Below the pieces are notes generated by a model. It worked only from the letters and a program-made list of their open reading frames with translations. It ran no database searches and had not been told where the DNA came from. 64,000 bases of DNA. Origin: Shimia gijangensis (GTDB lineage: Bacteria > Pseudomonadota > Alphaproteobacteria > Rhodobacterales > Rhodobacteraceae). Shown one piece after another: positions 1,972 through 27,380 of the stretch (positions within the stretch are counted from its first letter, which is position 1; the number at the start of each line of letters is the position of its first letter). The position numbers were made by a program, and so were the translations under genes. Location: positions 1-64,000 of the forward strand of contig NZ_FQZQ01000002.1 of NCBI RefSeq assembly GCF_900142085.1, given 5' to 3'.

Positions 1972-2820
1972 CTAGCCAACTGTGTTAAGCAATGTGCCGA
2001 TACCTGACACCGTCATGCTGACTGTATCGCCTGTTTTTAGGTAACGCTTGGGTGTCCGGCTGCCTCCGGTTCCATCAGGCGAGCCGGTTGCAATGACGTC
2101 TCCCGGACGGAGAGCAAACAAAGAAGACACATAAGCAATTTGTTCACCCACTGAAAATATCATCTCATTTCCTAAGGCAGACTGTACCTGAGTGCCGTTT
2201 AGGGAAACGCTCAAATGCATCTCTTCCGGTGGAGGAAGGTCATCGACCGTTGTAATCCAAGGGCCCCATGCGCCTGAATCGGCAAAATTTTTGCCTGCAT
2301 AAATCGAGTGCCTTTGCCAATCTCGAACGGACCCGTCGTTGAAGACCGAGTACCCCAGAACATAGTCCATCGCAGTTCCTACGGAGACATTGCGGGCAGA
2401 TTTGCCGATCACTACGGCGATTTCACCTTCGTAGTCAAAGCTGTTTGCCGGGTCCCCTGCGGGGATTTCAAGTGCCGCATTATGTGCCTGCAAAGTGTCC
2501 CGTTCTTTTCCAAACAAAATAATGTTTTCAGGATTGGGAGGGGCGACACCGTCAACCGGATAGGGTTTGGGGTAGTTCATGCCGACACAGATAATCTTGC
2601 GCGGGTTCGGGATTGGGGGCAGAAACTCTATGCTGTCGCAATTGATGCGGTTTGTATGGTCTTTCGCATCTTGAGCAAGCCTTTCCAGCGCGCCTGCGTC
2701 CAACGCGTCTCGCAGCGTTGGAAAATCTGCAAGAAACTCAGCACTGACGGGCGAAACTTGTTCCTCGTCGAAGACGCCATAGAAAGCTCTGCCATCATAG
2801 ATAAACGAGCCGATATTCAT
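1972..2820 (-). CDS. Fumarylacetoacetate hydrolase (FAH) family protein
   Basis: Metal-dependent hydrolase, decarboxylase or isomerase acting on 2-oxo or beta-dicarbonyl acids. The start MNIGSFIYDG at 2820 lies one base after the stop of the upstream gene (TGA-c-ATG), giving 282 aa. An N-terminal FAH cap domain is followed by the catalytic domain with metal ligands in DYEGEIAVVIGK and in NDGSVRDWQ, then the family signature RPGDVIATGSPDGTG. It is the last gene of a three-gene operon with the MttB homologue and the PanE-like reductase, so it probably cleaves or hydrates a product of that route. The exact substrate is unknown. A second FAH paralogue in this window belongs to the hpa operon. Confidence 0.85.
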   Translation of the reverse strand: MNIGSFIYDGRAFYGVFDEEQVSPVSAEFLADFPTLRDALDAGALERLAQDAKDHTNRINCDSIEFLPPIPNPRKIICVGMNYPKPYPVDGVAPPNPENIILFGKERDTLQAHNAALEIPAGDPANSFDYEGEIAVVIGKSARNVSVGTAMDYVLGYSVFNDGSVRDWQRHSIYAGKNFADSGAWGPWITTVDDLPPPEEMHLSVSLNGTQVQSALGNEMIFSVGEQIAYVSSLFALRPGDVIATGSPDGTGGSRTPKRYLKTGDTVSMTVSGIGTLLNTVG

Positions 2821-2821
2821 G

Positions 2822-3751
2822 TCAGGATGCTCCAAAGGCTGCTTCGCGCTGGCGCAAAATTGCGGCAAGCGTGTCGTTAATCGGCGTGGGAATTCCCAAT
2901 TCGCGTCCCATCACGGGAACGATTCCATTGATAGCGTCCAGTTCTGAGGCTCTGCCAGCCATGTGGTCCAGCAACATGGACGGGCGCGCATTAGGCATGC
3001 CACCGCCGAATTGCGAGACATAGGCGATGGGGTCGTCAAAGGATAATGGCACATCCTTGGCCCGAGCGATCTCGTAGGCTTCTGACATAGCTCCCAATGC
3101 GATTTGCCAATGGTCGGGGGTGGACATCAATTCGCCAACGGTCTGGTTAAAGGTTGTACAAGGCGCACTGAAAGTCACATTGCACAGGAACTTTTCCCAG
3201 ATCAGTTGTGTGATGTTTTCAAAAGCCTTGGCGTTAAAGCCTGCGCCCTGCCAGACGGCTTCGACTTGACGTAATCTGTCTGTCAGGCCGCCATTGATTT
3301 CGCCGATACGGATCAGTTTCATGGCATTGTGATGCGCGTGTCCCGGGCCTTTCATCGAGGCGCCAAAACCATCGGCAACCCCAAGCAACACATTTTCAGC
3401 CGGTATGTGTTGGGCGATGCGCTCGCCGGCGCCTAGTCCGTTTTGGATCGTCAAAACAAGCGCATCGGGGCCGATCACTTTGGCCGCCTCTTGTGCGGCA
3501 GGGCCGACACCCGACGCCTTGGTTGCAATCAGGCACAGATCACAAGGCCCAACGTCTGCGATTTGTCCTGTGGCGCGCAAGGTTTCAACGGTTCGGTCAC
3601 CGCTGGCCCCCTCGACCCTTAGACCATTGGCATTTATTGCGTCCACATGGTTTGCCCATGTGTCGACGGCCCAGACCTCGTGGCCTGCATCTGCCAGCAA
3701 CGCCGCATAAATCGACCCCATGGCCCCAACGCCCATTACAGCGATCTTCAT
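2822..3751 (-). CDS. Ketopantoate reductase-like (PanE/ApbA) NAD(P)H dehydrogenase
   Basis: PanE/ApbA-fold reductase of 309 aa. The Rossmann motif GVGAMGSIYA is at residues 7-16. The C-terminal domain carries the family Lys-Asn pattern in WEKFLCNVTFSAPC. True PanE makes pantoate, but the operon position between an MttB methyltransferase and a FAH protein points to a catabolic 2-oxo/2-hydroxy acid substrate instead. Its ATG overlaps the MttB stop by 4 bp (ATGA, 3748-3751), so translation is coupled. Substrate not determinable from sequence. Confidence 0.82.
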   Translation of the reverse strand: MKIAVMGVGAMGSIYAALLADAGHEVWAVDTWANHVDAINANGLRVEGASGDRTVETLRATGQIADVGPCDLCLIATKASGVGPAAQEAAKVIGPDALVLTIQNGLGAGERIAQHIPAENVLLGVADGFGASMKGPGHAHHNAMKLIRIGEINGGLTDRLRQVEAVWQGAGFNAKAFENITQLIWEKFLCNVTFSAPCTTFNQTVGELMSTPDHWQIALGAMSEAYEIARAKDVPLSFDDPIAYVSQFGGGMPNARPSMLLDHMAGRASELDAINGIVPVMGRELGIPTPINDTLAAILRQREAAFGAS

Positions 3752-5301
3752 GAGTTCTGCGTCCTTGTGGCTGTGAGGCGTATGTCAAATCGCGCCCGCA
3801 ATTCTTGTTCTGTTTCTGCCGATATGTGGCACGGGAAATGCGTGGCCAGAATACGACGCGCCGCTTCTTTTGCAGTGGTGTTGATTGTCGGGGCACCGCT
3901 CGCGATCCACGCCTCAGGCGCCTGACGATCGGCGTGTTCCGGGTAAACAAAGTCCGATTTCATACGGGCATAGGTGTCTGTATGTCCCAAAAAGTGGCCT
4001 TCGCCTTGCACCGCCTCGGCAATGGCATTCGTTGAGAGGGTCGTGGCATTGACTTCGACTGGGCTAGCTGATCGGAGAATGGCTCCAAGCATATCATTAT
4101 CGACGACATAGGCCTCCATGGACGTAGCAAGAAGCCCGGCCTGAGTGCCCGCAGCCTGAGTGATCAGATTTGCGCCTGCCTGCACGGCCATGGTGATGGC
4201 CATGGACTTTTCAAACCCAGATTGCGCGTCGGCAAGCTTGCTGTCCGTCGCCCCCGCGATTGTTGAGTTTGGCAAATTATAAAACCGAGCCATTTGGGTC
4301 GCGGCCGCAGTCAGGATTGCTTGTTCTCCGCTGCCGCCTGCCATGCCGCCTGTGCGCAGATCTGTCACCATTGGGCGCGCTCCGTAGATCGCCCTGACAT
4401 CAGGATCGCGCGCCCAGGCAAAAACCATGCCAGCCAGAGTTTCCGCATTGGTTTGCGCCAGACACCCCGCGATAGTTACCGGGCTCGAGGCGCCCATTTG
4501 CCCAAAAGTGTTAACCATCACTGGCAGGCCAAATGTAATGGCTTCTGTCATGACGTCACATGCATCGGGGTCAAATCGTAAAGGGGGTACAACGTGATTG
4601 ATGTTCACGGACAGAAACGGACGGTCTCGAAACGCTCCTTCCGATCCTGCGATTGCGTAACATATTTGTGCGATGTCGTGGACGTGGGACGCATGGCTAA
4701 TGCTGACGATGACATGTTTGGAAGTCCCGGCGAGAGAAGCAAAAGCTGTGTTCAGATCCAGTGATCTGGAGTCCGGCATATCGCTTGCGATCATGGATCG
4801 CGAGAAAAACTGAACATGCTCCAAAGTATCGACCAGTCGAGCCGCATCATAAAGATCGTTCAGTGTCGCAGCGCGGTAGCTTCCGCTTTCAAGATCAACG
4901 ACCTGAGGCGACGCCCCCCCGGACCCCGTGTGCACTTTGGCTCCAGACAATTCAATATCCCGGCCTGGTGCGCGTCCACAGAGCGTGATCTTCCGTGTTA
5001 TCTGTTGTAATGCCGTTGTCACCAAAGGGCGTGGAAAAGTTAAGCGACCATCACTCGTGTGCTTTCCTCCGTGACGACAAACGATTTCGATCACGCCTTG
5101 GGGCGCATCGCTAAGACCTATATTTTCGAGGATATCCAGCGACGCTTCGTGAATTTGCGCGACATCGCTATCTGTCAACGGCTTGAAGCGCCCCGCTTCA
5201 GGAGCCGTGCGGGAGGCGGGCAGTTTGTGTGCCGCAACGCTTTTCTTTCTACGCCCTCCAGATTGGCGGGGCCGATGAGAAGAGGCTGACTCAGTGTTCA
5301 T
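3748..5301 (-). CDS. MttB-family (trimethylamine methyltransferase-like) protein, non-pyrrolysine
   Basis: COG5598 / MttB superfamily TIM barrel that in characterised members (MttB, MtgB) moves a methyl group from a tertiary or quaternary amine to a corrinoid protein. The reading frame is about 517 aa from the ATG at 5301 with no internal amber codon, so this is a pyrrolysine-free homologue whose substrate cannot be read from MttB itself. The N-terminus (RRKKSVAAHK) is basic and low in complexity. It is first in an operon with PanE-like and FAH genes. A start at 5331 would add 10 residues. No corrinoid protein is adjacent. Substrate unknown, probably a quaternary or N-methylated amine. Confidence 0.85.
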   Translation of the reverse strand: MNTESASSHRPRQSGGRRKKSVAAHKLPASRTAPEAGRFKPLTDSDVAQIHEASLDILENIGLSDAPQGVIEIVCRHGGKHTSDGRLTFPRPLVTTALQQITRKITLCGRAPGRDIELSGAKVHTGSGGASPQVVDLESGSYRAATLNDLYDAARLVDTLEHVQFFSRSMIASDMPDSRSLDLNTAFASLAGTSKHVIVSISHASHVHDIAQICYAIAGSEGAFRDRPFLSVNINHVVPPLRFDPDACDVMTEAITFGLPVMVNTFGQMGASSPVTIAGCLAQTNAETLAGMVFAWARDPDVRAIYGARPMVTDLRTGGMAGGSGEQAILTAAATQMARFYNLPNSTIAGATDSKLADAQSGFEKSMAITMAVQAGANLITQAAGTQAGLLATSMEAYVVDNDMLGAILRSASPVEVNATTLSTNAIAEAVQGEGHFLGHTDTYARMKSDFVYPEHADRQAPEAWIASGAPTINTTAKEAARRILATHFPCHISAETEQELRARFDIRLTATRTQNS

Positions 5302-5407
5302 AGGCGCAATCCAAAGCTGATGACTCGACATTCAACGTTGCGTTCTGGCTCGACAAGCAGTTTGTGAGATTTTGTATTAAGAAAAATGTTGCTATAGGGT
5401 TTCTCAT

Positions 5408-5733: not shown

Positions 5734-6342
5734 TTACTTTTTGATCCCAGCCGGGTTTTCGATATCCCGGCCTAGGGCCGCCAGGTCCGAATACCGATCT
5801 CCGATGCGATGGTGCGGACGCCCGCCTGTTGCGGCCCCAAGTGCAACGACCAGCTCATTTTCAGCAGGGGCATCATAGATCGAGAACTGCGTTGTCAGAT
5901 AATGCGAGCGTCGGCCTGTGTCGTGCTTGTCCATCAACGGAATTTGCACTTGGGAGTTGGCAGGCCCACGCGTGTTGGTGAAGCCAAGATAGCTTTTGGC
6001 ACCGACGGCTTCGCGGTAAAAATTACCAAACTGCAGCGTGTGTATCAGCGCCGAGGCATGTTCCAATTCGCAGTTTGCACCTGCGATACATGCTTTTCCG
6101 TAAGCTTCGATCGCGTCGCCAGACCCGGCCAACGCAATCAGCCGATCCGTCAACATCTTGCCAAGCGGAGGCGCCATGCGTTGAATTTCGGGTTGCAGGT
6201 CTTCGACATAACCGCGCCCGGCCCAAGGGTTGGCGACAACCGCCGCTACACCAATCACCCGCAAAACCGGGTCCGCAGCGCGTTCACCATCGCGGTATAT
6301 GTCTTCGTCAAAAGTTACGACTTTTCGTAGTTCAGGCAGCAT
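5734..6342 (-). CDS. Amino acid synthesis family protein (AA_synth, DUF1185)
   Basis: A 202-aa protein matching the AA_synth/DUF1185 family along its length, with typical segments KVVTFDEDIYRDG at the N-terminus, VIGVAAVVANPWAGRG, and ALGAATGGRPHHRIGDR near the C-terminus. Despite the name, the biochemical role of the family is not established. It is the distal gene of a four-gene operon after RidA, an alpha/beta hydrolase and the CoA-transferase/flavin-reductase fusion. Its place beside flavin-monooxygenase genes suggests a part in breakdown of a nitrogen-containing ring or amide, which is an inference. Confidence 0.75.
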   Translation of the reverse strand: MLPELRKVVTFDEDIYRDGERAADPVLRVIGVAAVVANPWAGRGYVEDLQPEIQRMAPPLGKMLTDRLIALAGSGDAIEAYGKACIAGANCELEHASALIHTLQFGNFYREAVGAKSYLGFTNTRGPANSQVQIPLMDKHDTGRRSHYLTTQFSIYDAPAENELVVALGAATGGRPHHRIGDRYSDLAALGRDIENPAGIKK

Positions 6343-6359
6343 TACGCGTTCCTATTTGT

Positions 6360-8471
6360 TTAGTGTTTCGATTGGTGCATTCCGGCAACCTTGTGGACAA
6401 GTCCCGAGGCCTCGTCGCCTTGATAAATGCCAAAGCTGCCGTGTTTGTACTCGTCCCGGTAGCGGCTCAGCATGCTGCGTTCCGCCGTACTGGGGATGTT
6501 TTCCAAGGGAAGTTCGGAAAGTTCAAAATATGCCATGTTTTCAGGGGCATTTCCTGAAACTGTACCATGGTAATAGATCCCGTGGTGGCCGGTCTCGCTT
6601 TCGCTGTAGATCGCATAAAGATAGTCCAGCTGAGCAGTCAGACCTTTGGTTTTCAGCATGTCTGTTAAGCGATCCAGACTGCTGTTGCCTTCTACCGTAT
6701 GTGGCACGCAAAAGTCGCCGTCAGGAAGTTTCTGCAATAGGATTTTCTGGTCGCGTTCCATGACGGCCCCGATTGAAACTTTGCCCCCGGCGCCAGCGGC
6801 ATTGACCAGCGGTTCCTCCAGGCCAATCGAGAAGTACGACCCCCCGAAATATCCCAAGGGCTGGCTGTCGCTTTTGGCGTGTTCTTTCACGAGGCCGATC
6901 AGGATCAGGTGATCCCCTGCATCCACTAGTTTGTGACGTTCGCATACAAAACTGCCCAGAGACCCGTCGAGTACCGGCATCTCGGCATATCCAGGATGCC
7001 AGTCAGCCTGTTCGAACTTGTCCGGCGCACGTGAGGCAAAAAGTCCTGACACTGCTTTTTGGTCTTCGCTCAGGATGTTCACCGCGAAATGATCCGCTTC
7101 GGCAAAGGTGTCGCAGCTAAAGGCGGATTTTGCGATGCAGACCAACAAAAGGGGCGGGTCCAAAGAGACAGAGCTGAACGAATTGGCCGTGAACCCGCGT
7201 GGCGTGCCGTCTTTTTGGCGTGTGGTTACCACCGTAACGCCGGTGGCAAACGTCCCAAAAGCACCGCGCAGAGATCGCTTTTCCTCGTCGCTCATTGGGG
7301 GCGTTTCCGCGGCGTTGAGAAATGTCTCCGTGTGCTCGCCCAATCGGGGGGGAGACGCAAATGCCGTGGGCGGATGCCCACCAAACCTAAGAGGGTTTGC
7401 CGCCACGGTCCAAGGGGAGCGAGATGGATCCGGGTGGGGCACATGCGTGAGCATCTTACGAGCCGCAACATGTGGGTCACGAAAGATATCTTCGATGGTG
7501 TTCAGCGGGCCAAAAGGAACGTTCCCGCCTAGTATTTCAGTCAGATCAGCCTTGCTGCGCTGGGCCGTCCAGTCCCCAACCATTCCATTGACTTCTGTCG
7601 CATTTCCCGAGCGCGCCGCGCGGGTGGCATAGCGCGGGTCTGTGCCTAATTCTGGTTTGCCCATCGCTGTTGCCAGAACTTGCCAAAATGAGTCATCCAC
7701 AATACCAAGCGCGACCGAGCCGTCATTGGTTGGGAACAATCCAAACGGGGCCAGCAATGGGTGACCGTTGCCCTCAGGTTTCGGAATTTCACCCGTCATA
7801 TCATGCAGGTAAACTGCACGTTCGCACAACGAGATCATCGCGTCATACATGGCAACGTCAAGGAATTGGCCCTTTCCTGTGGCCTCCGCTTCGCGAAGCG
7901 CTGTCATCACTCCAAAGGACATCATCATCCCGGCAAACACGTCGCCAATTCCGGGGCCAACTTTGGTGGGGGTGTCTGCATCTGGGCCGGTCACAGCCAT
8001 CAATCCACCCATCGCCTGCGCCACCACATCGTAGGACGGCCATTTGCCATAAGGGCTGTCGCCGGTGCGTGGATCACCAAACCCTCGAATGGCGGCGTAG
8101 ACTAAAGCCGGATTGGTTTCGGCCAAAGATTCGTAGGATAATCCCAAGCGGTCCATCACGCCGGGGCGAAAGTTCTCGACGATCACGTCTGCAGAGGCTG
8201 CAAGTTTGCGAAATGCCTCTTTGCCGGCTTCGCTTTTGAGGTCCAGCTGAACGCTTTTCTTGTTGCGATTTAGGCTGACAAAATATCCGGCCCAGTCGTG
8301 TTCCGGATCATCATCGCGAAAGGGGCCGTTGTTGCGACTGGTGTCGCCGCGCTTGTCTTCGATCTTGATGACCTCGGCGCCGTGATCGGCCAGCATCATC
8401 GTGCAGTAAGGGCCAGATAGCATGCGGCTGAGATCCAGCACGCGCAGCCCTTTCAGAATCTGAGTGCTCAT
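6360..8471 (-). CDS. Fusion: class III CoA-transferase (CaiB/BaiF) + flavin reductase + Nudix-like domain
   Basis: A single 703-aa frame with three parts. Residues 1-390 are a CaiB/BaiF CoA-transferase with LRVLDLSRMLSGPYCTMMLADHGAEVIK cut here to its key N-terminal pattern LDLSRMLSGP, VIVENFRPG and the expected catalytic Asp177 (GIGDVFAG). From about Met393 (codon 7293-7295) comes a flavin-reductase-like FMN domain (FGTFATGVTVVTT, GFTANSFSSVSLDPPL). From about residue 565 there is a Nudix-like C-terminal domain. The usual last 15 or so CoA-transferase residues are missing and replaced by the junction NAAETPPMSDEE. The start overlaps the upstream hydrolase stop by 4 bp. The reductase part probably feeds reduced flavin to the luciferase-like monooxygenase encoded across the divergent promoter. 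Confidence 0.85.
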   Translation of the reverse strand: MSTQILKGLRVLDLSRMLSGPYCTMMLADHGAEVIKIEDKRGDTSRNNGPFRDDDPEHDWAGYFVSLNRNKKSVQLDLKSEAGKEAFRKLAASADVIVENFRPGVMDRLGLSYESLAETNPALVYAAIRGFGDPRTGDSPYGKWPSYDVVAQAMGGLMAVTGPDADTPTKVGPGIGDVFAGMMMSFGVMTALREAEATGKGQFLDVAMYDAMISLCERAVYLHDMTGEIPKPEGNGHPLLAPFGLFPTNDGSVALGIVDDSFWQVLATAMGKPELGTDPRYATRAARSGNATEVNGMVGDWTAQRSKADLTEILGGNVPFGPLNTIEDIFRDPHVAARKMLTHVPHPDPSRSPWTVAANPLRFGGHPPTAFASPPRLGEHTETFLNAAETPPMSDEEKRSLRGAFGTFATGVTVVTTRQKDGTPRGFTANSFSSVSLDPPLLLVCIAKSAFSCDTFAEADHFAVNILSEDQKAVSGLFASRAPDKFEQADWHPGYAEMPVLDGSLGSFVCERHKLVDAGDHLILIGLVKEHAKSDSQPLGYFGGSYFSIGLEEPLVNAAGAGGKVSIGAVMERDQKILLQKLPDGDFCVPHTVEGNSSLDRLTDMLKTKGLTAQLDYLYAIYSESETGHHGIYYHGTVSGNAPENMAYFELSELPLENIPSTAERSMLSRYRDEYKHGSFGIYQGDEASGLVHKVAGMHQSKH

Positions 8472-9277
8472 GTTGCGACTCCTTGGGTATGGGCGTGCAG
8501 AAAGCGACGGATTGGGGCGTTTACCGCGACAGGATCCTCGGCCAAAGCCATATGTCTGAGACCAGGTAAAATCAGAGCTTCTGCGCCGTTGATTTCGGCG
8601 GCAATTGCCTTGGTCATTTCAGGGCCATTGCCGTAATCTTCATCCCCTGTGATGACTAGCGTCGGGCAGGAAATTGCTGGGGTGGGTGCTGTGATTTCGT
8701 CAATCCCGTCGGCCAAAACCCGGTAGATCGTGTGGTAAATCTCGATCTTGTTGGCCGTGACCCAGCCCCGCACCAGTTCCATCATTTGGGGGTTGGCTAG
8801 TCGAAAGTCTTTTGTAAACCAACGATCTAACGCGGCTTCTACAGTGGATGATGGGCCTTGTTCGCGTGCCATTTCAACACGGTCCAAAATTGCAGTCTGG
8901 GCCGCCTCGGTTCTTTGATGGGGGGAATGCAGAATGACCAAAGAAGTCGCCCTTGTTGGCACATCCTGTGCAAATCGACGGGCTATCATTCCACCCAAAG
9001 AAAAGCCCGCAATCGACGCTGTTTCTGCTCCAAGGTAATCCAGAAGTGCCGCCAACTGACGTGAAAACATCGCCAGCGAGGGCGTTTCGTTTGGAGCAGG
9101 GCTTTGGCCGTGGCCAAACAAATCGTAAGCCACGACGCGATATTGATCTCTTAGTGCTGGAGTTGTCCATTGCCAGCAGGCGCGGTTCAGGCCAAGCCCG
9201 TGGATCAAAACCACCACCGGCGCAGTCTCTGGCCCGCTGACATCATAGGCGGTTCCGTCAGGTGCAAACTGGGTCAT
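8468..9277 (-). CDS. Alpha/beta hydrolase (PcaD/RutD/TgnD-like)
   Basis: A 269-aa alpha/beta hydrolase starting MTQFAPDGTA at 9277, one base after the ridA stop. It has the oxyanion region LIHGLGLNRACW, the nucleophile elbow GFSLGG, the acidic residue in TGDEDYGN and the catalytic His in GLRHMALAEDP, all typical of 3-oxoadipate enol-lactonase-like enzymes. A longer upstream frame to 9436 overlaps ridA out of frame and is not credible as coding. In Rut- and Tgn-type pathways a hydrolase of this fold removes amide or carbamate products after monooxygenation, which fits its neighbours. Substrate unproven. Confidence 0.85.
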   Translation of the reverse strand: MTQFAPDGTAYDVSGPETAPVVVLIHGLGLNRACWQWTTPALRDQYRVVAYDLFGHGQSPAPNETPSLAMFSRQLAALLDYLGAETASIAGFSLGGMIARRFAQDVPTRATSLVILHSPHQRTEAAQTAILDRVEMAREQGPSSTVEAALDRWFTKDFRLANPQMMELVRGWVTANKIEIYHTIYRVLADGIDEITAPTPAISCPTLVITGDEDYGNGPEMTKAIAAEINGAEALILPGLRHMALAEDPVAVNAPIRRFLHAHTQGVAT

Positions 9278-9278
9278 A

Positions 9279-9680
9279 TCACACGCCGCTTTCCAAAGGG
9301 CGATAGGCGACGACCTCGATTTCGACCCGGATATCCACCAGAAAATCACTGACCAGAGCTGAGCGCGTCGGGGGCTCAACAGGGAAATACTCGCCATAGA
9401 CTTCATTGAAGCCCGGGAAGTCCGCTCGGTCACCAAGCCAGACCATGGATTTTACAACATCGCTCAACTCACAGCCCGCTTCGGCCAAGGTTGCCTGAAT
9501 GCCGTCAAGAACTGCGCGGGTCTGATCTTCGATGCTTCCGGCGGTCATTGGAACCCCGTCCTGCATCGGAATTTGCCCGGTCAGAAACACAAAATCACCG
9601 GCTCGAATTGCCCGGGAAAGGGACAAAACTCGCCCCCCGATTTCGAGCGGTTTTCCTACGATTTGTTTTTTGTTCGCCAT
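9279..9680 (-). CDS. RidA family (YjgF/UK114) enamine/imine deaminase
   Basis: A 133-aa RidA-fold protein with conserved VFLTGQIPM, QTRAVLDGIQATLAEAGC and the carboxylate-binding Arg in PTRSALV. RidA proteins hydrolyse reactive enamines and imines to carbonyl compounds and ammonia. It is the first gene of the minus-strand operon at 5734-9680 and diverges from the aldehyde dehydrogenase operon. As with RutC in pyrimidine breakdown, a RidA beside a flavin monooxygenase set suggests clearing of an unstable aminoacrylate-type intermediate. Confidence 0.88.
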   Translation of the reverse strand: MANKKQIVGKPLEIGGRVLSLSRAIRAGDFVFLTGQIPMQDGVPMTAGSIEDQTRAVLDGIQATLAEAGCELSDVVKSMVWLGDRADFPGFNEVYGEYFPVEPPTRSALVSDFLVDIRVEIEVVAYRPLESGV

Positions 9681-9735
9681 TTCGCTGTCTCCCTTATTGA
9701 AAGGTTAGACGGCGTTTTAGGGCATTTTATTCCCA

Positions 9736-9760
9736 AATTTCGACATAATACGACGAAATT
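9736..9760. promoter_or_regulatory. Inverted repeat in the divergent ridA / aldehyde dehydrogenase promoter region
   Basis: AATTTCG (9736-9742) and CGAAATT (9754-9760) form a perfect 7-bp inverted repeat with an 11-bp spacer, in the 142-bp gap between the two divergent operons. The same elements TTCGACA and GACGAAAT (or its complement) recur in the 15.3 kb promoter region beside the CdhR-like regulator gene, suggesting one regulator may serve both. Candidate operator only. Confidence 0.4.
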
Positions 9761-9822
9761 ACGCATGTTAAGTACGTTGAACCCGTAAGAATGAGAATCA
9801 CGGGACCAAAAGGAACGGCGAT

Positions 9823-11304
9823 ATGAGCGACATCCGCACTTACAAAATGTTGATAGACGGCGACTGGGTTGATGCGTCTGACGGAAAAACCTTTGACAGT
9901 ATCAACCCGGCAACCGGTGAAGTCTGGAGCCGCGTTCCGGAAGCCACGGCCGGTGATGTCGATCGCGCCGTTCGTGCCGCATATCGGGCGTTTGACACCG
10001 GGCCTTGGGCGAAAATGACCCCGACGGATCGGGGCCGTTGCCTTCGCAAACTGGCGGATCTTCTTGCCGACAAATCTGAAGATCTGGGACGCACCGAATC
10101 CATCGACAGTGGCAAGATGTTCAAAGAAACGCGCTGGCAGGCGAAGTATATCGCCGAATATTTTCATTTCTATGCGGGCTGCGCCGACAAGGTCAGCGGC
10201 GAGACCCTGCCCATCGATAAACCCGACATGTTTGTCTTTACCAAACGCGAGCCGCTGGGCGTTGTCGCAGCCGTGGTTCCTTGGAATTCACAGCTGTTCC
10301 TTGTGGCGGTCAAGATCGGCCCGGCGCTGGCGGCAGGCAACACTGTTGTTTTGAAAGCCTCGGAACACGCCTCTGCCGCGATGCTGGAATTTGGCGAACT
10401 CATCGAAGAGGCGGGGTTCCCGCCCGGTGTCATCAACATCGTTTCAGGGCACGGCGACCCGTGCGGCAAGGTGCTGACCAGCCATCCACAGGTGGCGCGG
10501 ATTTCCTTTACCGGCGGGCCCAATGCGGCGCGTCTGGTGCTGGAAAACTCCAAACAGAACTTTGCTGAAGTCTCATTGGAACTGGGCGGCAAATCGCCCT
10601 TCATCGTCTTTGACGACGCCAATATCGAAAGTGCGGTCAATGCATCGATTGCGGGAATTTTCGGGGCCACAGGGCAAAGCTGTGTCGCGGGATCGCGGCT
10701 CTATCTGCACGAAGACATTGCGGATGAATTCCTTGAACGCATGACCGGCATGGCGCGCAACATCCTGATTGGTGACCCGCTGGCTGAGGAAACCCAGATG
10801 GGCCCTTTGTGTACGCAAGGCCAGCTGGATCACATCCAGCGCGAAGTGGCCTTTGCCCGGGAAGAGGGCGGCAAAGTCCTTGTGGGTGGCAAGCAACCCG
10901 AGGGGTTGGAAGGTCTGTTTTACGAGCCGACAATCATCGAATGCCCGCGTCAGGACATGCGCATTGTCGACACGGAACTGTTTGGCCCGGTCCTGAGCGT
11001 TCAACGCTTTAGGACCGAGGAAGAAGTCCTGGCGCTGGCAAATGACAGCGAGCACGGACTTGCCGCCGGGATTTTCACCCAGAACAGCGCGCGAAGCTTG
11101 CGCATGTCCAGCGCCGTGCGCGCCGGCATTGTGTGGGTCAACACCTATCGCATGGTGTCACCGATTGCCGAATTTGGTGGCAACAAAGGCTCGGGCTATG
11201 GCCGCGAAGCCGGCTTCCAGGCGATTTACGACTACACCAGACCGAAAACGGTCTGGATAAACACATCGGATGAACCGATGGCCAACCCATTTGTCATGCG
11301 CTGA
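9823..11304 (+). CDS. NAD(P)-dependent aldehyde dehydrogenase
   Basis: A 493-aa ALDH oxidising an aldehyde to its acid. The cofactor motif VPWNS (Asn155), Lys178, general base Glu253 (LELGGKS) and nucleophile Cys287 (GQSCVAGSR) are all present. It leads a plus-strand operon with a luciferase-like monooxygenase, an enoyl-CoA hydratase and a carnitine dehydrogenase, and faces the ridA operon. By analogy with TgnC, which oxidises the ring-opened aldehyde of trigonelline, it may act directly after the monooxygenase; betaine-aldehyde-type substrates are an alternative. Start chosen at MSDIRTYKM after AAAGGAA. Confidence 0.9.
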   Translation: MSDIRTYKMLIDGDWVDASDGKTFDSINPATGEVWSRVPEATAGDVDRAVRAAYRAFDTGPWAKMTPTDRGRCLRKLADLLADKSEDLGRTESIDSGKMFKETRWQAKYIAEYFHFYAGCADKVSGETLPIDKPDMFVFTKREPLGVVAAVVPWNSQLFLVAVKIGPALAAGNTVVLKASEHASAAMLEFGELIEEAGFPPGVINIVSGHGDPCGKVLTSHPQVARISFTGGPNAARLVLENSKQNFAEVSLELGGKSPFIVFDDANIESAVNASIAGIFGATGQSCVAGSRLYLHEDIADEFLERMTGMARNILIGDPLAEETQMGPLCTQGQLDHIQREVAFAREEGGKVLVGGKQPEGLEGLFYEPTIIECPRQDMRIVDTELFGPVLSVQRFRTEEEVLALANDSEHGLAAGIFTQNSARSLRMSSAVRAGIVWVNTYRMVSPIAEFGGNKGSGYGREAGFQAIYDYTRPKTVWINTSDEPMANPFVMR

Positions 11305-11330
11305 TTTCAGCGAAACACGGAGTACGACCT

Positions 11331-12365
11331 ATGAAGTTCCAAATTGCAGTCAACATGGAGCGTATGGATGCCAGCCTTGATATGAAGGCGGTCCGCGATC
11401 ACACTCTGGACATGGTTAAGATGGCTGAACAGGGCGGTTTTGAAATCGCCTGGGCGGCTGAGCACCATGCCATGGAAATGACTATTGCGCCGAACCCGTT
11501 TCAGATTTTGACGTGGTGGGGTGAGCACACAAGTAAAATTCGCTTGGGCACCGCTGTGGCTGTGGCGCCATATTGGTCTCCGATCCGTCTGGCTGGCGAG
11601 GCGGCCATGACCGACCTTCTGAGCGATGGTCGTCTGGAGTTCGGAATCGGATCGGGCGCATATCAACGCGAGTTTGATCGGATGCATCCCGGGCTCAAGC
11701 AAAGCGACGCATGGCGGTACATGCAGGAAATGCTGCCTGCAGTGCGGGCGCTTTGGGCGGGCGATCACGAGTTGGACGGTGATTTCTGGAACTATCCAGT
11801 GTCAACTTCGGTGCCGAAACCTGCTCAAAAAGACGTGCCGATCTGGGTGGCTGCCCGCTCGCCGATTACCTTCGATTACGCAGTGAAAAATGGCTACAAT
11901 ATCCAATCTTGGCCGCTCACCCGCCCAATGAGCGAAGCCGAGCTTTATATGGAGCGCCTGCAGGAAGCGGTTGACGCCAATCCGGGTTGCAAGCGGCCAA
12001 CGATGGCGATGATGCGTCACACGGCGGTTTATGACAAACCCGAAGACGTGGATGTGCCTTTGGCCGCAGCTCGGACCCAGTTGGGGCAGTTTGAGAATTA
12101 TTTCAAAAACTTAGGTGATGTGGAAAACGGATTTGCGAAACCAATTCCACTGGAAAGCCTGGAAAACCGCGCGGAATACGATGCGGACATGCTGACCGAG
12201 AACCTGATGTTTGGCACGCCAGACGTGGTGATCGAAAAGCTGAAAAAGTACGAGGCTATCGGTGTCGATAGCTTCATCTACTACGCCAGCCTGGGTCTGG
12301 GTCACAAAGAACAGAAACGCTCGCTCGAGCTGTTTTGTGACAAGGTCATGCCAGCCTTCTCGTAA
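11331..12365 (+). CDS. Luciferase-like (LLM class) flavin-dependent monooxygenase
   Basis: A 344-aa protein of the bacterial luciferase/LLM family that uses free reduced FMN and oxygen. Landmarks are FEIAWAAEHHAMEM at the substrate and flavin face, LTWWGEHTSKIRLGTAVAV, and DGRLEFGIGSGAYQREFDR. It carries no reductase domain, so it needs a partner; the flavin reductase in the fusion protein at 6360-8471 is the obvious one. It lies 26 bp after the aldehyde dehydrogenase, with an ACGGAG ribosome-binding site. Likely role: oxygenative opening of an N-heterocycle or oxidation of a methylated amine, by analogy with TgnA and RutA. The substrate is inferred only. Confidence 0.85.
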   Translation: MKFQIAVNMERMDASLDMKAVRDHTLDMVKMAEQGGFEIAWAAEHHAMEMTIAPNPFQILTWWGEHTSKIRLGTAVAVAPYWSPIRLAGEAAMTDLLSDGRLEFGIGSGAYQREFDRMHPGLKQSDAWRYMQEMLPAVRALWAGDHELDGDFWNYPVSTSVPKPAQKDVPIWVAARSPITFDYAVKNGYNIQSWPLTRPMSEAELYMERLQEAVDANPGCKRPTMAMMRHTAVYDKPEDVDVPLAAARTQLGQFENYFKNLGDVENGFAKPIPLESLENRAEYDADMLTENLMFGTPDVVIEKLKKYEAIGVDSFIYYASLGLGHKEQKRSLELFCDKVMPAFS

Positions 12366-12411: not shown

Positions 12412-13215
12412 ATGACTGAAGGTGTCACAACCCGTCGCGACGGGCATGTTTTGGAGATCACTCTTGATCGCCCAAAGGTCAACGCAATTGACGTTGCCAC
12501 GTCTCAGGCCCTTGCTGCGGCCTTCAAAGAACTGCATGACGACCCGGAGCTTCGGGTCGCCATTCTCACCTGCGGAGGGGACAAGATCTTTTCCGCAGGC
12601 TGGGATCTCAAGGCGCTGAATTCGGGTGAAATGCAGCTCGATAACTGGTGGGAAACCGATGATTACGGGGATGGCGGGTTCACTGGCCTGACCGAGAACT
12701 GGTTCCTGAACAAGCCGGTGATTGCCGCAATCAATGGTCTGGCCATTGGCGGCGGGTTCGAGATGGCGCTGGCCTGTGATCTGCTGATCGCCGCCGATCA
12801 CGTTGAATTTGGTCTGCCGGAAATGCCGCTTGGTATTGTGCCGGACGCAGGTGCATTGCAACGTCTGCCACGTCGCATCCCTCACAACATCGCGATGGAG
12901 ATGTTCTATCTCGGGCGTCGCATGCCTGCGGCTGAGGCTGCGCACTACGGGCTGGTCAACAAGATCGTGCCCAAGGATCAACTGATGGATGCTGCCCGCG
13001 AGTGGGCGGCGTCGCTGGCTTGGTCTGCACCTCTGGCTATGCAAAGCGTCAAAGAGGTTCAGCGCACTATCGAATGTGTCCCTTTGGAGGATGCGTTCCA
13101 CAAAATGCGCACTGATCCCATGCCAACCTATCGCAAGATGCTGAAATCGGATGATGCGGCCGAGGGCGTGGCGGCATTTGTCGAAAAACGCGAACCCAAC
13201 TTTAAGGGTGAGTAA
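12412..13215 (+). CDS. caiD: Enoyl-CoA hydratase, CaiD-like (crotonobetainyl-CoA hydratase)
   Basis: A 267-aa crotonase-fold enzyme. It follows Escherichia coli CaiD closely in blocks such as HVLEITLDRPKVNAID, FSAGWDLKA, KPVIAAINGLAIGGGFE, LGIVPDAG and FVEKREPNFKG at the end. CaiD interconverts crotonobetainyl-CoA and carnitinyl-CoA. The neighbouring carnitine dehydrogenase starts one base after its stop, which strongly supports a carnitine role. The CaiD-specific name is based on remembered family similarity rather than a search, so a general hydratase remains possible. Confidence 0.8.
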   Translation: MTEGVTTRRDGHVLEITLDRPKVNAIDVATSQALAAAFKELHDDPELRVAILTCGGDKIFSAGWDLKALNSGEMQLDNWWETDDYGDGGFTGLTENWFLNKPVIAAINGLAIGGGFEMALACDLLIAADHVEFGLPEMPLGIVPDAGALQRLPRRIPHNIAMEMFYLGRRMPAAEAAHYGLVNKIVPKDQLMDAAREWAASLAWSAPLAMQSVKEVQRTIECVPLEDAFHKMRTDPMPTYRKMLKSDDAAEGVAAFVEKREPNFKGE

Positions 13216-13216
13216 C

Positions 13217-14167
13217 ATGTTCAAAGCACCGAAGGACGTTAAGCGCGTCGCCAGTATTGGCGGCGGGCCCATCGGGGGGGGCTGGACCGCGCATTTTCTG
13301 GCGCGCGGCTATGACGTCACCACCTATCTGCACAGCGAAGCGGAAATTCCGGCCTTTCGTACCATTTTGGACACGGCCTGGATCAGCCTGACCGCGCTGG
13401 GCCTTGCCGAAGGCGCCTCGCTGGACCGGCTGACGATTGAGACGGATATCGAAAAGGCTGTTGAAGGCGCTGATTTTATTCAGGAAAGCGCGCCTGAGAA
13501 CCTTGAGATGAAGCAAGAGCTTTATCGCAGGCTGGGTGAGGTTGTGCCAAAGGATGTGGTCATAGGGTCTTCGACCTCGGGTCTGATGATGAGTGACATT
13601 CAGGCCAAATGTGCAACCCCTGAGCGCACGGTGATCGGGCATCCGTTTAACCCGCCCTATCTCTTGCCGTTGGTCGAGATCGTTGGTGGAGACAACACTG
13701 TGCCCGAAGCGGTTCAGTGGGCCGGAGAGTTCTATCGCATCGCGGGTAAAGCACCCCTGATGATGAAAAAGGAAATCCCCGGTTTTGTCGCCACGCGCCT
13801 GCAAGAGGCTTTGTGGCGCGAGGCGCTGCATATGGTGGCCAATGGCGAGGCAACGCCCGAAGACATCGACATTGCCCTGATGAACGGTCCCGCACCGCGC
13901 ATGATGGCGCAAGGTCAGTGCATGGCGTTCCACGTCGCCTGTGGCGAGGGCGGCATGGCGACGAACCTTGATCAGTTTGGCCCGGCGCTCAAGCTGCCAT
14001 GGACCCGGCTGGAGGCACCGGAGCTGACGCAAGAGCTACGGGACCGTATGGTCGAGGGCTGCAACGACATCGCGGGCGACCAGCATTTCTCGGATATGGC
14101 CACGCAGCGCGACAAAGAGATCGTGGCGTTGCTGAATGCGCTTAGGGCTTCTCGCGACGACGGGTGA
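13217..14167 (+). CDS. lcdH: L-carnitine 3-dehydrogenase (3-hydroxyacyl-CoA dehydrogenase family)
   Basis: Oxidises L-carnitine to 3-dehydrocarnitine with NAD. The 316-aa frame begins MFKAPKDVKRVASIGGGPIG at 13217, one base after the upstream stop; a longer frame from 13151 overlaps the hydratase and is rejected. The Rossmann loop GGGPIGGGW, the catalytic HPFNPPYLLPLVE region and the ending typical of carnitine dehydrogenase (no second HCDH domain) are visible. Many homologues are fused to a betainyl-CoA thioesterase domain (CdhB); this one is not. The partner enzyme CdhC is encoded 1.2 kb away beyond the regulator. Confidence 0.85.
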   Translation: MFKAPKDVKRVASIGGGPIGGGWTAHFLARGYDVTTYLHSEAEIPAFRTILDTAWISLTALGLAEGASLDRLTIETDIEKAVEGADFIQESAPENLEMKQELYRRLGEVVPKDVVIGSSTSGLMMSDIQAKCATPERTVIGHPFNPPYLLPLVEIVGGDNTVPEAVQWAGEFYRIAGKAPLMMKKEIPGFVATRLQEALWREALHMVANGEATPEDIDIALMNGPAPRMMAQGQCMAFHVACGEGGMATNLDQFGPALKLPWTRLEAPELTQELRDRMVEGCNDIAGDQHFSDMATQRDKEIVALLNALRASRDDG

Positions 14168-14186: not shown

Positions 14187-14227
14187 AACGCCCTGTGCCC
14201 ACACCCGGTTACAGGGCGTTTTTCTTT
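14187..14227. terminator. Bidirectional terminator between convergent lcdH and the CdhR-like gene
   Basis: AACGCCCTGT (14187-14196) and ACAGGGCGTT (14211-14220) form a perfect 10-bp stem with a 14-nt loop, followed by TTTTTCTTTTG. On the other strand the stem is followed by a shorter T-run. The regulator stop codon lies at the edge of the loop, so its last codons form one arm. A single hairpin probably ends both converging transcripts. Confidence 0.8.
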
Positions 14228-15273
14228 TGTTGTTTGAGCTGTAGGGACGCAATGAATTCCGATAGCGTTCCCGGCCAGCTAGGTGCGGATTCGTCCTGGG
14301 GCCAGGCTTCGCGATACTCGGATGGCCGCCTGTCGAAGAATTTGCCGAACGAATAGGCAAAATGCGACAGGGTGTTGAACCCAGAAGCTGTGGCGATCTC
14401 ACGGACACTCAAATTCGTTGAAATCAAAAGCAAACGTGCCCTTTGCAGACGGAGTAAAAGGCCAAACTGAACGACGGTACACCCGATCTGTTTTTTGAAA
14501 TTCCTCTCTAGCTGGCGTTGTGACACGCCCAAAGCTTCTGCAATCTCAGGTACGCTTAACGGTTCCTCGATGTTGCGTTCGATCAGCGCGATTGCCTCGC
14601 GTATGACAGGAGGCAGGGTCACGGTGCCATGCCCCATTGTGCGCCGCTGTGGTGCGGATTTTTCGCGGATCGAATGCACCATCATCTGGTCCGCAATTTC
14701 ACCTGAAAAGGCGCTACCGTGAATAATCTCAATGATGTAAAGCATCATATCGACAACGGCCATCGCGCCGGCACAGGTCAGAACGCGATTGTTGGTGGTA
14801 AAGACCTGTTCCTTGACGTCGATATTGTCAAAAGTTTCCTTGAATCCATTCATCCAGGACCAGTGGGTTGTTGCTTCTTTTTCGGCCAGCAAACCGGCCC
14901 TTGCAACCGGGTAACAACCCAATTCGACAGCGCAAATCGTTTCCCCCTGACGAGACCGTCTGCGCAGCCACGATACCAGATTTCGGTTGTTGTAATGCTC
15001 GGCCCCCCAGCTCGCCAGAACGGACACATAATCCGCAGAGCGTATATTTTCGGTGTCCGTCGAAGCTGTCACCGAAAGGCCGCTACTGGCGATGACCTGT
15101 GCGCCGTCAAAGGACACGATCTCCCACGAAAAAGATTTTTGCGACGACAGGTAGTTGGCGATGCGCATGGTCTCGATCATGTTGACCAAAGTGCCCAAAT
15201 TGAATCGGGGTATGACCACAAACACCATGTGAGTCTCGCCGCGCTCCATGGGCTGATCTAGTTTCAGGTCCAT
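14209..15273 (-). CDS. GlxA-family AraC-type regulator, CdhR-like (carnitine catabolism)
   Basis: A 354-aa regulator. Residues about 15-190 form a DJ-1/PfpI-like sensor domain, with a Cys in VELGCYPVARAGLL. Residues about 225-325 form the AraC double helix-turn-helix (LSVPEIAEALGVSQRQLERNFKKQIG and LSVREIATASGFNTLSHFAYSF, shortened here to their recognisable cores). The family includes CdhR and GbdR, which control carnitine and betaine genes in pseudomonads. It diverges from the dehydrocarnitine-cleavage gene, the classic place for a pathway activator. Its C-terminal tail forms part of the shared terminator. The ligand is inferred to be carnitine or a derivative. Confidence 0.85.
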   Translation of the reverse strand: MDLKLDQPMERGETHMVFVVIPRFNLGTLVNMIETMRIANYLSSQKSFSWEIVSFDGAQVIASSGLSVTASTDTENIRSADYVSVLASWGAEHYNNRNLVSWLRRRSRQGETICAVELGCYPVARAGLLAEKEATTHWSWMNGFKETFDNIDVKEQVFTTNNRVLTCAGAMAVVDMMLYIIEIIHGSAFSGEIADQMMVHSIREKSAPQRRTMGHGTVTLPPVIREAIALIERNIEEPLSVPEIAEALGVSQRQLERNFKKQIGCTVVQFGLLLRLQRARLLLISTNLSVREIATASGFNTLSHFAYSFGKFFDRRPSEYREAWPQDESAPSWPGTLSEFIASLQLKQQKKNAL

Positions 15274-15403: not shown

Positions 15404-16294
15404 ATGAACTACGATGTTGTTGTGACCTGTGCGGTCACGGGAGCAGGGGCCACTACTGATCGCAGCCCGCATGTACCTGTCACACCAAAAGAGGTGGCGG
15501 ATGCCGCTATTGAAGCCGCCAAGGCCGGAGCAGCGGTGGCGCACATCCATGTACGTGACCCGGAAACAGGGCAGGGGTCGCGAGATCCGAAGTTGTTCAA
15601 AGAGGTGGTGGATCGGGTCCGTGACAGCGATACAGACGTCGTGATCAACCTGACCGCAGGTATGGGTGGCGACTGGATTCAGGACGCTGATAACCCGGCG
15701 ATGCCCGGTCCCGGTACCGACATGATCAGCGCCGAAGAGCGCCTGATCCACATCGAAGAATGCCGCCCTGACATTTGTTCTCTGGATTGTGGTACGCTGA
15801 ATTTTGGCGATGGCGACAATATCTATATCTCGACCCCGCCAACCTTGCGCTACATGGCCGAAAAGGTGCGGGAATGGGGCGTAAAGCCCGAGTTGGAAGT
15901 GTTCGAATTGGGCCACATTCGCTTTGCGCGTCAGATGATCAAGGAAGGCCTGATCGCGGACCCACCCATGTTCCAGATTTGTCTGGGTATTCCATGGGGC
16001 GCGGATCAGAGCGTCGACACGATGAAGGTCATGAAGGACCACCTGCCGCATGACGCCAGCTGGGCCGGGTTTGGCATTTCGCGCATGCAGATGCCGATGG
16101 CTGCTGCTGCGGTTGCAATGGGTGGCAACGTGCGTGTCGGTCTGGAGGACAACCTGTTCCTGGATCGCGGCGTTCTGGCCACAAACGGTCAACTCGTTAC
16201 TCGTGCGGTCGAGATTATTGAACGTATGGGCGGTCGCGCGATCACACCACAGGAAGCGCGCAACAAACTGAAGCTGCGCGGAGCAGAGATCTAA
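15404..16294 (+). CDS. cdhC: 3-keto acid cleavage enzyme (BKACE, DUF849), probable 3-dehydrocarnitine cleavage enzyme
   Basis: A zinc-dependent BKACE enzyme of 296 aa from [15 protein letters not shown]. It shows the metal-binding His47/His49 ([11 protein letters not shown]), the [10 protein letters not shown] block and the late Glu in RVGLEDNLF. Family members condense a beta-keto acid with acetyl-CoA and release acetoacetate plus a new CoA ester. With dehydrocarnitine the products are acetoacetate and betainyl-CoA. The position between a CdhR-like regulator and a transporter, with carnitine dehydrogenase nearby, supports this specificity. A start at 15356 is less likely because a GGAGG/AAGGA tract precedes 15404. 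Confidence 0.85.
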
Positions 16295-16295
16295 C

Positions 16296-17300
16296 ATGTT
16301 TGAAGCCAATAGCGACAAAGGCAGCCTTCAGGTTCGCGACGTATCCAAGTTTTTTGGCACGTTTTGCGCGGTCAACGGGGTCGACCTTGAGATTCAGCGC
16401 GGCGAGTTCCTGACCCTTTTGGGCCCATCAGGCTCCGGCAAGACAACGCTTTTGATGATGATTGCCGGATTTCTCGACATCACCTCAGGCGATATCGCGC
16501 TCGATGGAACCTCGATCTCGGGCGTACCAGCTGAAAAACGCAATTTTGGTATGGTGTTCCAGGGCTATGCTCTGTTCCCCCATATGACCGTGCGGGACAA
16601 CATTGGGTATGCCCTGAGCGTGCGCAAACGCCCCGAAGCAGAAATCCGCGAAAAGGTCGATGAAATGCTCGATCTTGTGCAACTCGTTGACTTTGCCGAT
16701 CGTAAGCCCGGGCAGCTCTCGGGTGGTCAACAGCAACGTGTCGCCCTTGCGCGCGCCCTGTGCTTTGAACCTCCGGTGCTGCTGTTGGACGAACCCCTTG
16801 GGGCATTGGACAAGAAGCTGCGCGTCGAAGTGCAGGATCAGCTGAAAGACATCCACAAGCGCGTTGGAACCACGTTCATCTATGTGACCCACGATCAGGA
16901 AGAAGCCCTATCGATGTCTGATCGCATCGTCATCATGCGCGACGGCGCGATTGAACAGGTGGGCACACCTTATGAATTGTACGAGAAACCGGCCAATGAA
17001 TTTGCCGCGGGTTTCCTCGGGAAAAGCAACTTTTTGCAACGCGCAGACGGCGTCTATGCGCTGCGCCCAGAGAAGATCGACATCCGCGCCTCCGGTACAG
17101 GAGAGGGCGAGCCACGTCTTAGCGGCACAATCCAGTCGATTACGTATTTCGGCTCGATGCAGCGGATCATGTTCCTGACCAATGGCGGTGAGGAGCTAGA
17201 GGTCGATATCGATTCTTGGCGCAACCGGGATCCTCTTGAGGAAGGTCAGAGTGCTGACCTCTACTGGGATAAGGGCGCAGCCGTAAAACTTGAGGGATAA
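16296..17300 (+). CDS. ABC transporter ATP-binding protein (PotA-like)
   Basis: A 334-aa ATPase of the polyamine/opine/iron-type ABC class energising uptake across the inner membrane. Walker A GPSGSGKTT, Q-loop VFQGYALFPH, signature LSGGQQQR, Walker B VLLLDEP and H-loop YVTHD are intact, followed by a TOBE-type C-terminal domain (ALRPEKIDI). It starts one base after the cleavage-enzyme stop and belongs with the binding protein and two permeases downstream. The operon context suggests import of carnitine, gamma-butyrobetaine or a related quaternary amine rather than polyamine. Confidence 0.9.
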   Translation: MFEANSDKGSLQVRDVSKFFGTFCAVNGVDLEIQRGEFLTLLGPSGSGKTTLLMMIAGFLDITSGDIALDGTSISGVPAEKRNFGMVFQGYALFPHMTVRDNIGYALSVRKRPEAEIREKVDEMLDLVQLVDFADRKPGQLSGGQQQRVALARALCFEPPVLLLDEPLGALDKKLRVEVQDQLKDIHKRVGTTFIYVTHDQEEALSMSDRIVIMRDGAIEQVGTPYELYEKPANEFAAGFLGKSNFLQRADGVYALRPEKIDIRASGTGEGEPRLSGTIQSITYFGSMQRIMFLTNGGEELEVDIDSWRNRDPLEEGQSADLYWDKGAAVKLEG

Positions 17301-18533: not shown

Positions 18534-18566
18534 ACCTCTTTCCTTAGATTGCGGATCACGGCCCTC

Positions 18567-26496: not shown

Positions 26497-26518
26497 GGTT
26501 AATAGGGAGGAGAACACC

Positions 26519-27373: not shown

Positions 27374-27380
27374 TTCCAGG

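Follow-up and report, generated by a model that had tools for sequence, protein, structure and literature searches.

Marine algae contain homarine and other pyridinium betaines as abundant solutes (PMC12817926). Which bacteria consume which of these compounds, and with which genes, is still being worked out. Several described systems resemble the gene cluster considered here. In the trigonelline (Tgn) system of Acinetobacter baylyi, TgnF stimulates succinate semialdehyde oxidation by TgnE. It is homologous to HcdD, a PF06684 protein for which the authors were unable to show a stimulating effect of this kind (PMC7913881). A conserved homarine catabolic pathway has been published (Ferrer-Gonzalez et al. 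2026, Nat Microbiol, as cited in PMC13390433), N-methylglutamate dehydrogenase takes part in homarine breakdown (PMC13390433), and homarine is quickly taken up by R. pomeroyi (PMC12817926). We analyzed 64,000 nt of Shimia gijangensis (GCF_900142085.1, contig NZ_FQZQ01000002.1, positions 1-64,000, forward strand; hereafter the window), in which a cluster combines a ring-opening "head" built around a luciferase-like monooxygenase (LLM) with a "tail" that resembles the gamma-butyrobetaine/carnitine gene set.

With not quite even confidence, we favor the reading that this is a two-stage catabolic cluster in which the tail feeds the head and the head substrate is most likely homarine or a relative of it. 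A more specific version, which we hold tentatively, is that the pathway is an unreported one: a carnitine-paralogous coenzyme A (CoA) module would shorten some imported acid by two carbons to a heteroaromatic betaine carboxylate, a Tgn-type monooxygenase would open that betaine, and a three-domain fusion protein would physically couple the two halves. The head very probably opens a small nitrogen-containing ring compound by a kind of pathway that is already known, and it is the pairing with a carnitine-like tail that is the unusual combination.

Head and tail belong together. The LLM and the LcdH-like dehydrogenase of the tail were each sought in 394 Rhodobacteraceae genomes (apparently identical sets in the two scans, with at most five candidates scored per genome), counting an LLM at an identity of at least 59% and a window-type LcdH at E <= 1e-110 (60-82% identity). 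The LLM was found in 39 genomes and window-type LcdH in 17 (18 genes), all within those 39, which leaves 22 with the LLM and no window-type LcdH. Every one of the 18 LcdH genes shares a contig with a window-type LLM, at no more than 1.2 kb in 17 cases and at 6.5 kb in the remaining one (G836). No window-type LcdH lacking a head was seen in these 394 genomes or in 14 that were followed up, where eight (L012, L018, L022, L027, L029, L030, L075, and L077) have the LLM without window-type LcdH, five have an LcdH at 74-77%, and L042 has one of 52%. Tail genes also stand beside the LLM in gammaproteobacterial and Puniceispirillum-type loci, in different gene orders, and in Pseudohalocynthiibacter (L061, L176), one of the five with an LcdH at 74-77%, the tail and its ATP-binding cassette (ABC) importer lie 0.9 Mb from the head.

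The fusion protein, which joins a CoA-transferase to the flavin reductase, follows the tail. A scan of genome contigs found 112 relatives of the LLM, of which 80, 65-85% identical to it, were kept; they come from Rhodobacterales, other proteobacteria, Acidimicrobiia, and one Chloroflexi genome bin. The reductase could be classified in 35 of these loci (a count that excludes the window and two plasmids): 22 have the fusion and the tail, one the fusion only (L077), one the tail only (L080), and 11 neither (Fisher 3.3e-7, on rows related by descent). Outside the count, L084 is fused with a tail and L083 unfused with a tail. Two of the 11 loci with neither (L004, L061) have window-type LcdH elsewhere in the genome, and the "without tail" label of L051, L056, L057, L058, and L067 is a threshold or contig-end effect, because all five contain BKACE, the beta-keto acid cleavage enzyme of the tail, and four of them other tail genes as well. 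The cluster is made up as follows.

5734-6342, minus strand: AA_synth protein (PF06684, TgnF-like; Pfam 228.9 bits; 61.5% identical to the pSymA homologue; PDB relatives 2qtp and 3byq)
6360-8471, minus strand: CoA-transferase/flavin reductase/Nudix-fold fusion, 703 aa (Pfam CoA_transf_3 and Flavin_Reduct; third domain predicted from the fold)
8468-9277, minus strand: alpha/beta hydrolase in the TgnD position, PcaD-like by sequence (Pfam, NCBIfam, PDB)
9279-9680, minus strand: RidA/L-PSP family protein (Pfam 86.8 bits)
9681-9822: 142-base region separating the two divergent head operons
9823-11304, plus strand: aldehyde dehydrogenase (ALDH; Aldedh), TgnC-like (Pfam; 55% to the ALDH of the pSymA cluster)
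11331-12365, plus strand: LLM (Bac_luciferase), in its own clade beside the Tgn type (Pfam, trees)
12412-13215, plus strand: tail enoyl-CoA hydratase (ECH), CaiD-like (NCBIfam crotonobetainyl-CoA hydratase, 304 against a cut-off of 500 bits)
13217-14167, plus strand: tail LcdH-like 3-hydroxy acid dehydrogenase without the thioesterase domain (NCBIfam, below cut-offs)
14209-15273, minus strand: GbdR/GlxA-type AraC regulator (NCBIfam GbdR, 246.7 against 480)
15404-16294, plus strand: tail BKACE (Pfam 338.1 bits; 56% identical to the closest of the other BKACE genes in this genome)
16296-17300, plus strand: ABC importer ATPase (Pfam)
17387-18496, plus strand: ABC importer binding protein (Pfam; second-best PDB match the gamma-aminobutyrate sensor 6dgv)
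18549-19412 and 19409-20209, plus strand: ABC importer permeases (by relation to annotated permeases in two plasmid loci)
20222-21382, plus strand: tail acyl-CoA dehydrogenase (ACAD; Pfam, NCBIfam)
21379-23475, plus strand: tail acyl-CoA ligase forming a nucleoside diphosphate (NDP-forming; Pfam, NCBIfam)
23472-24620, plus strand: beta-lactamase-family hydrolase, probably the final gene of the operon (Pfam)

A sequence-only reading of positions 5734 to 12365 had placed two divergent operons there; each gene that it named lies where it was placed, with Pfam matches above cut-offs, and the operons run RidA-hydrolase-fusion-AA_synth on the minus strand and ALDH-LLM on the plus strand. The cluster extends past 12365 to about 23475: the plus operon adds ECH and LcdH, and the GbdR-like gene and a BKACE-ABC-ACAD-ligase run follow. 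From the open reading frame (ORF) coordinates, neighbors within operons overlap by 4 bases or are 1-46 bases apart, and in P. marina pW43B a serine hydrolase gene likewise comes directly after the ligase. The divergent layout, with AA_synth and hydrolase on the minus strand and ALDH and LLM on the plus strand, is found in 34 of the 80 kept loci and in the two plasmids, and many of the remaining loci end at contig edges. This recurrence is more than chance, and the extension from ECH to ligase is retained in many of the same relatives.

The cluster has other neighbors in the window. Just downstream of AA_synth, on the minus strand (1972-5331), are genes for an MttB-family methyltransferase (345 against 525 bits), a ketopantoate-reductase-like protein, and an FAA-hydrolase, none of which stands beside the cluster in the near relatives compared; they were therefore not counted as part of it. 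A 389-aa ORF at 150-1319 resembles a tyrosine-recombinase integrase as read from its sequence. On the other side, 24988-29177 is a homoprotocatechuate (hpa) operon (HpaE 772 against 638, HpaD 448 against 316, and HpaH 374 against 351.5 bits, with an HpaG-like isomerase scoring under its cut-off); the ALDH at 24988 is the HpaE of this operon and is not a member of the cluster.

By homology, the head is shown to belong to the Tgn-type class of two-component flavin mononucleotide (FMN) monooxygenase routes. An LLM and a separate flavin reductase are present, as are a Tgn-type ALDH, an alpha/beta hydrolase, and a PF06684 protein in one cluster. Alkanesulfonate enzymes, which the sequence-only reading had named as relatives that would point elsewhere, were not seen: of 30 NCBIfam matches to the LLM, none of which passes its cut-off, the alkanesulfonate model is not one of the best 25 that are shown. 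We compared the head with stand-ins for the A. baylyi system, namely S. meliloti pSymA and Pseudomonadales-order clusters; in the comparison of whole systems, the stand-ins were pSymA and the clusters L157, L158, and L160. More distant LLMs were sampled in 398 genomes of the phylum and 390 genomes of the order of G286, with an LLM at the set limits in 23 and 10, respectively. ORF maps were drawn around 22 distant LLMs (36-43% identical to that of the window); since such maps, like those used for L004 and the canonical-type LcdH loci, hide overlapping frames, a gene they do not list may still be present. AA_synth accompanies an ALDH with 50-56% identity to the window ALDH in 19 of the 22, and in 13 the whole five-gene core (LLM, flavin reductase, ALDH, hydrolase, and AA_synth) is visible; in L135, L136, and L140, both AA_synth and an ALDH of this kind are absent. 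In L157, L158, and L160, a second ALDH scores above the subfamily cut-off for succinate semialdehyde dehydrogenase (SSADH; 719, 730, and 698 against 646) and below that of the E. coli-type SSADH equivalog; L179 also has an SSADH over the subfamily cut-off.

The pSymA cluster of S. meliloti 1021 shows the same core on one strand, in the order AA_synth, hydrolase, reductase, LLM, ALDH, a NIPSNAP gene, an ABC importer, and SSADH (695 against 646). Identities to the window are 61.5% for AA_synth, 32% for the hydrolase, 40% for the reductase, 41% for the LLM, and 55% for the ALDH, and the importer is of the same family as that of the window. Trigonelline genes were reportedly described in S. meliloti by Boivin in 1990, and the trc genes of this species lie on pSym. 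Because AA_synth belongs to the family of TgnF and SSADH is present, the SSADH-bearing clusters hold all six Tgn gene kinds. AA_synth had been singled out as a feature that sets the cluster apart from known routes; given the TgnF homology and the pSymA cluster, it is, on sequence grounds, an expected part of a Tgn-type pathway and no oddity.

The LLM itself suggests that the substrate is probably not trigonelline. In a tree of 51 LLMs, three sets stand out, each with 100/100 support: one of 23 rows that includes pSymA and the SSADH-bearing clusters; one of 7 rows from rhizobia, Azospirillum, Caballeronia, and Thalassospira; and one of 21 rows that includes the window LLM. The window set makes up 84 of the 114 rows of a larger tree, with support 100/99; both trees are midpoint-rooted and have some long branches. 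Operons of the second set adjoin ProXWV (in rhizobial and Azospirillum relatives) or an amino-acid-type ABC importer. Within the window's own five-row group, L004 (LLM 82% identical) is a five-gene operon, reductase-ALDH-LLM-AA_synth-hydrolase, adjoining an OpuAC glycine-betaine-type binding protein. A betaine substrate fits these importers beside relatives of the head whose loci lack the tail, and the head substrate is most likely homarine or a close relative betaine, not trigonelline. Homarine leads because of its abundance, its uptake by R. pomeroyi, the published pathway, and its 2-carboxylated ring, which would give a 2-imino acid of the RidA type. RidA proteins are known for 2-imino acid substrates.

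Several further observations were made among the LLM loci. A betaine transporter presumed beside the LLM in L060 was rejected, being a phosphoenolpyruvate carboxykinase. The L004 genome has a second head cluster (L177), where a GbcA-like Rieske oxygenase (3963-5168; 132 against 670 bits) lies between ALDH and LLM. L043, L052, L071, and L132 (and L062 and L073 by clustering) have Xsc-like thiamine pyrophosphate (TPP) enzymes beside the LLM and no tail; these score 404-430 against the 676-bit cut-off of sulfoacetaldehyde acetyltransferase. Four genomes (G786, G1018, G1057, and G1061) have two window-type LLM genes each, with LcdH beside only one, and G1061 has a third LLM, this one of the 40% type, as though these bacteria fed on a range of related substrates.

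Homology shows that the tail is paralogous to the carnitine set. ECH, BKACE, LcdH, ACAD, ligase, and GbdR each have their counterpart in canonical clusters, and of 14 loci retrieved around LcdH genes of the canonical type, 10 hold BKACE, LcdH, ACAD, and ligase together. Elsewhere in the same genome, a canonical-type LcdH (38% identity, 537-aa frame) and a BKACE (56%) stand side by side with a GbdR-type gene, and the tail of the window is therefore a paralogue. The window LcdH fails the curated NCBIfam cut-offs for L-carnitine dehydrogenase (313 against 414) and carnitine 3-dehydrogenase (256 against 592), the latter of which is passed by the canonical LcdH of L162, the only one tested whole (741.8). 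Canonical LcdH is about 500 aa long and has a thioesterase part by the family model; the window type has 316 aa.

The residues that differ suggest a changed substrate. After three BKACE and four LcdH rows that fitted neither group had been dropped, every one of the 38 window-type and gammaproteobacterial rows has R, A/V, and M/I at BKACE positions 173, 218, and 232; in canonical BKACE, W173 and W218 are found in 14/14 and Y232 in 13/14, with one F. LcdH position 205 is H in 46/46 rows versus W in 13/13 canonical ones. The loss of aromatic residues and the gain of an arginine suggest that the far-end group of the tail substrate is not trimethylammonium. As residues and linkage both differ, we rejected mere duplication of the carnitine set as a full explanation of the tail. 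Other genes adjoin related clusters. Aminobacter has an acetoacetate-CoA ligase gene after the tail, which counts in favor of the two-stage reading, and its plasmid pSR3 (L083, 1835-7078) has MmgE/PrpD, ACAD, CoA-transferase, MaoC, and CoA ester lyase genes; in a gammaproteobacterium (L049, 2995-7015), MmgE/PrpD, ECH, CMD, and DAO-type oxidoreductase genes are found.

The fusion protein links CoA chemistry with flavin monooxygenation. It consists of a family III CoA-transferase (7302-8471), a flavin reductase (about 6825-7256), and a C-terminal part (6363-6830) without a Pfam match. The AlphaFold2 model of this part (pLDDT 80.8) is a predicted Nudix fold: Foldseek retrieves Nudix folds (3cng, E 2.0e-10) and S. 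meliloti SMa0793 (3rh7, 1.6e-08), and the reductase and Nudix parts together align in sequence with almost the full length of the 3rh7 chain (E 2.9e-63). We know of no described pathway in which a CoA-transferase is fused to a flavin reductase, the literature not having been searched for one.

From the gene kinds, the clade, the linkage, and the paralogy, the following chemistry and order may be proposed. An imported acid R-CH2-CH2-COO- would be activated by the NDP-forming ligase and the CoA-transferase, and the acyl-CoA then dehydrogenated, hydrated, and oxidized at C3 by the LcdH-like enzyme. BKACE, with acetyl-CoA, would cleave the product to acetoacetate and R-CO-CoA. The fused CoA-transferase could return the CoA to the incoming acid, replacing the thioesterase part of the canonical carnitine dehydrogenase. 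R-COO- would be a small N-heteroaromatic betaine carboxylate whose ring is opened by the LLM with the reductase. The ALDH would oxidize the freed aldehyde, the alpha/beta hydrolase take off the N-formyl group, and RidA hydrolyze the resulting enamine or imine, with the AA_synth protein perhaps assisting in the manner of TgnF. Within this favored reading, the order of tail before head is little better than even. It is favored because the importer accompanies the tail when the halves stand apart, because related heads have their own betaine importers beside them, and because the tail-associated CoA-transferase is fused to the reductase serving the LLM, which would suit CoA release followed directly by ring opening. 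The existence of heads without window-type LcdH, with the reverse not seen, was also counted for this order.

The alternative that survives best, which we consider unlikely without being far-fetched, is that the head is simply an operon for homarine (N-methylpicolinate) like the published one and that the carnitine-like tail is a separate, neighboring betaine pathway under related regulation. In L004 the cluster indeed reduces to five genes beside a betaine binding protein, a number that fits the enzymes in the name of the homarine operon. The pathway in print and the rapid uptake by R. pomeroyi agree with this alternative, and RidA would suit a 2-imino acid from an opened 2-carboxylated ring. 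On the other hand, independence of the halves is hard to square with a window-type LcdH that never occurs without a nearby window-type LLM in 394 genomes, or with a CoA-transferase-reductase fusion that tracks the tail.

Improbable, in our view, is a tail that lies downstream, taking a ring-opened N-methylated acid from the head (similar to N-methylglutamate or 4-(methylamino)butenoate) through CoA-linked beta-oxidation and BKACE cleavage. The same linkage of head and tail, the placement of LLM, ECH, and LcdH in one operon, the possibility that BKACE R173 holds an extra carboxylate, and the part of N-methylglutamate dehydrogenase in homarine breakdown (PMC13390433) all speak for it; yet the importer stays with the tail when the latter is apart from the head, and no reductase that would plainly yield the saturated acid is found among the annotated cluster genes. 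The trigonelline pathway itself, of which five of six gene kinds are present, is very improbable and was rejected as a source of the substrate, because the window LLM (41% identical to that of pSymA) lies outside the 100/100 clade of pSymA and the SSADH-bearing clusters that stand in for TgnB, and because the cluster has no SSADH (TgnE), the ALDH at 9823 scoring 400 against 646 and that at 24988 being HpaE.

Several points weigh against the two-stage reading. First, the dependence of the tail on the head fits a downstream tail equally well, and the importer argument is weakened since the same ABC family occurs in the trigonelline-type cluster of pSymA and since the second LLM of the L004 genome has LcdH beside it (L177). 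Moreover, we can name no natural acid R-CH2-CH2-COO- of the kind needed. Coupling through the fusion has exceptions: L077 has the fusion in a genome without window-type LcdH, in L080 the tail goes with an unfused reductase and the locus contains no CoA-transferase, and Aminobacter has the tail with an unfused reductase and a CoA-transferase present only as a 30% relative. Gammaproteobacterial, Puniceispirillum, and Roseovarius loci are without AA_synth and reductase within the flanks compared. With regard to homarine, R. pomeroyi, which takes it up, is not among the 80 listed of the 112 LLM loci, and the Xsc-like TPP enzymes beside tail-less LLMs are unaccounted for by homarine or trigonelline schemes. 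Finally, window-type BKACE also gains aromatic residues (Y/F141, F/Y190), one of the dropped rows, from an acidimicrobial BKACE, retains W173, positions 173, 218, and 232 are alignment positions that line the pocket only putatively, and the ECH comparison rests on just two canonical rows.

What follows for pyridinium betaine catabolism? The three LLM clades are now separated and can be assayed one by one, and an LcdH-like gene beside the LLM serves as a marker for a substrate yet to be named. The Tgn-like head is of a known kind; its coupling to a carnitine-like module through the three-domain fusion is the part worth testing.

How does the cluster compare with described systems? The sequence-only reading had drawn on both the Tgn route and Rut pyrimidine breakdown; the five-gene core, found in clusters with all six Tgn gene kinds, bears out the former. 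With Rut, the cluster shares the combination of LLM, RidA protein, hydrolase, and flavin reductase, but the Rut-like reading was rejected on family scores, as none passes (RutC 49.8 against 169, RutD 68 against 238.5, and RutF 86 against 255 bits) and RutA is absent from the best 25 displayed out of the 30 NCBIfam matches to the LLM. The fusion resembles the reductase C1 of p-hydroxyphenylacetate hydroxylase in that another domain comes after the reductase domain (NCBIfam 151 bits; PDB 5zc2); the match spans the reductase domain only, and the added domain in the window is a predicted Nudix fold, the whole being nearest to 3rh7. With the homarine pathway, as cited in PMC13390433, the cluster would share a marine pyridinium betaine of the right class; it differs in having no N-methylglutamate dehydrogenase among its annotated genes. 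The tail shares with the route from gamma-butyrobetaine/carnitine to glycine betaine the same gene kinds one to one (GbdR, BKACE, LcdH, ACAD, and ligase), at identities to canonical loci of 52-56% for BKACE, 36-41% for LcdH, 48-53% for ACAD, and 38-42% for the ligase; unlike that route, it has an LcdH without the thioesterase part and a BKACE in which W173, W218, and Y232 are replaced. With TgnA-F of A. baylyi, the head shares an LLM-family two-component FMN monooxygenase, an ALDH, an alpha/beta hydrolase, and a PF06684 accessory protein, and with the Tgn stand-ins, including pSymA, a reductase with a long C-terminal part. It departs from Tgn in its lack of SSADH, its own LLM clade, its RidA protein, its CoA-transferase-reductase fusion, and its carnitine-like tail.

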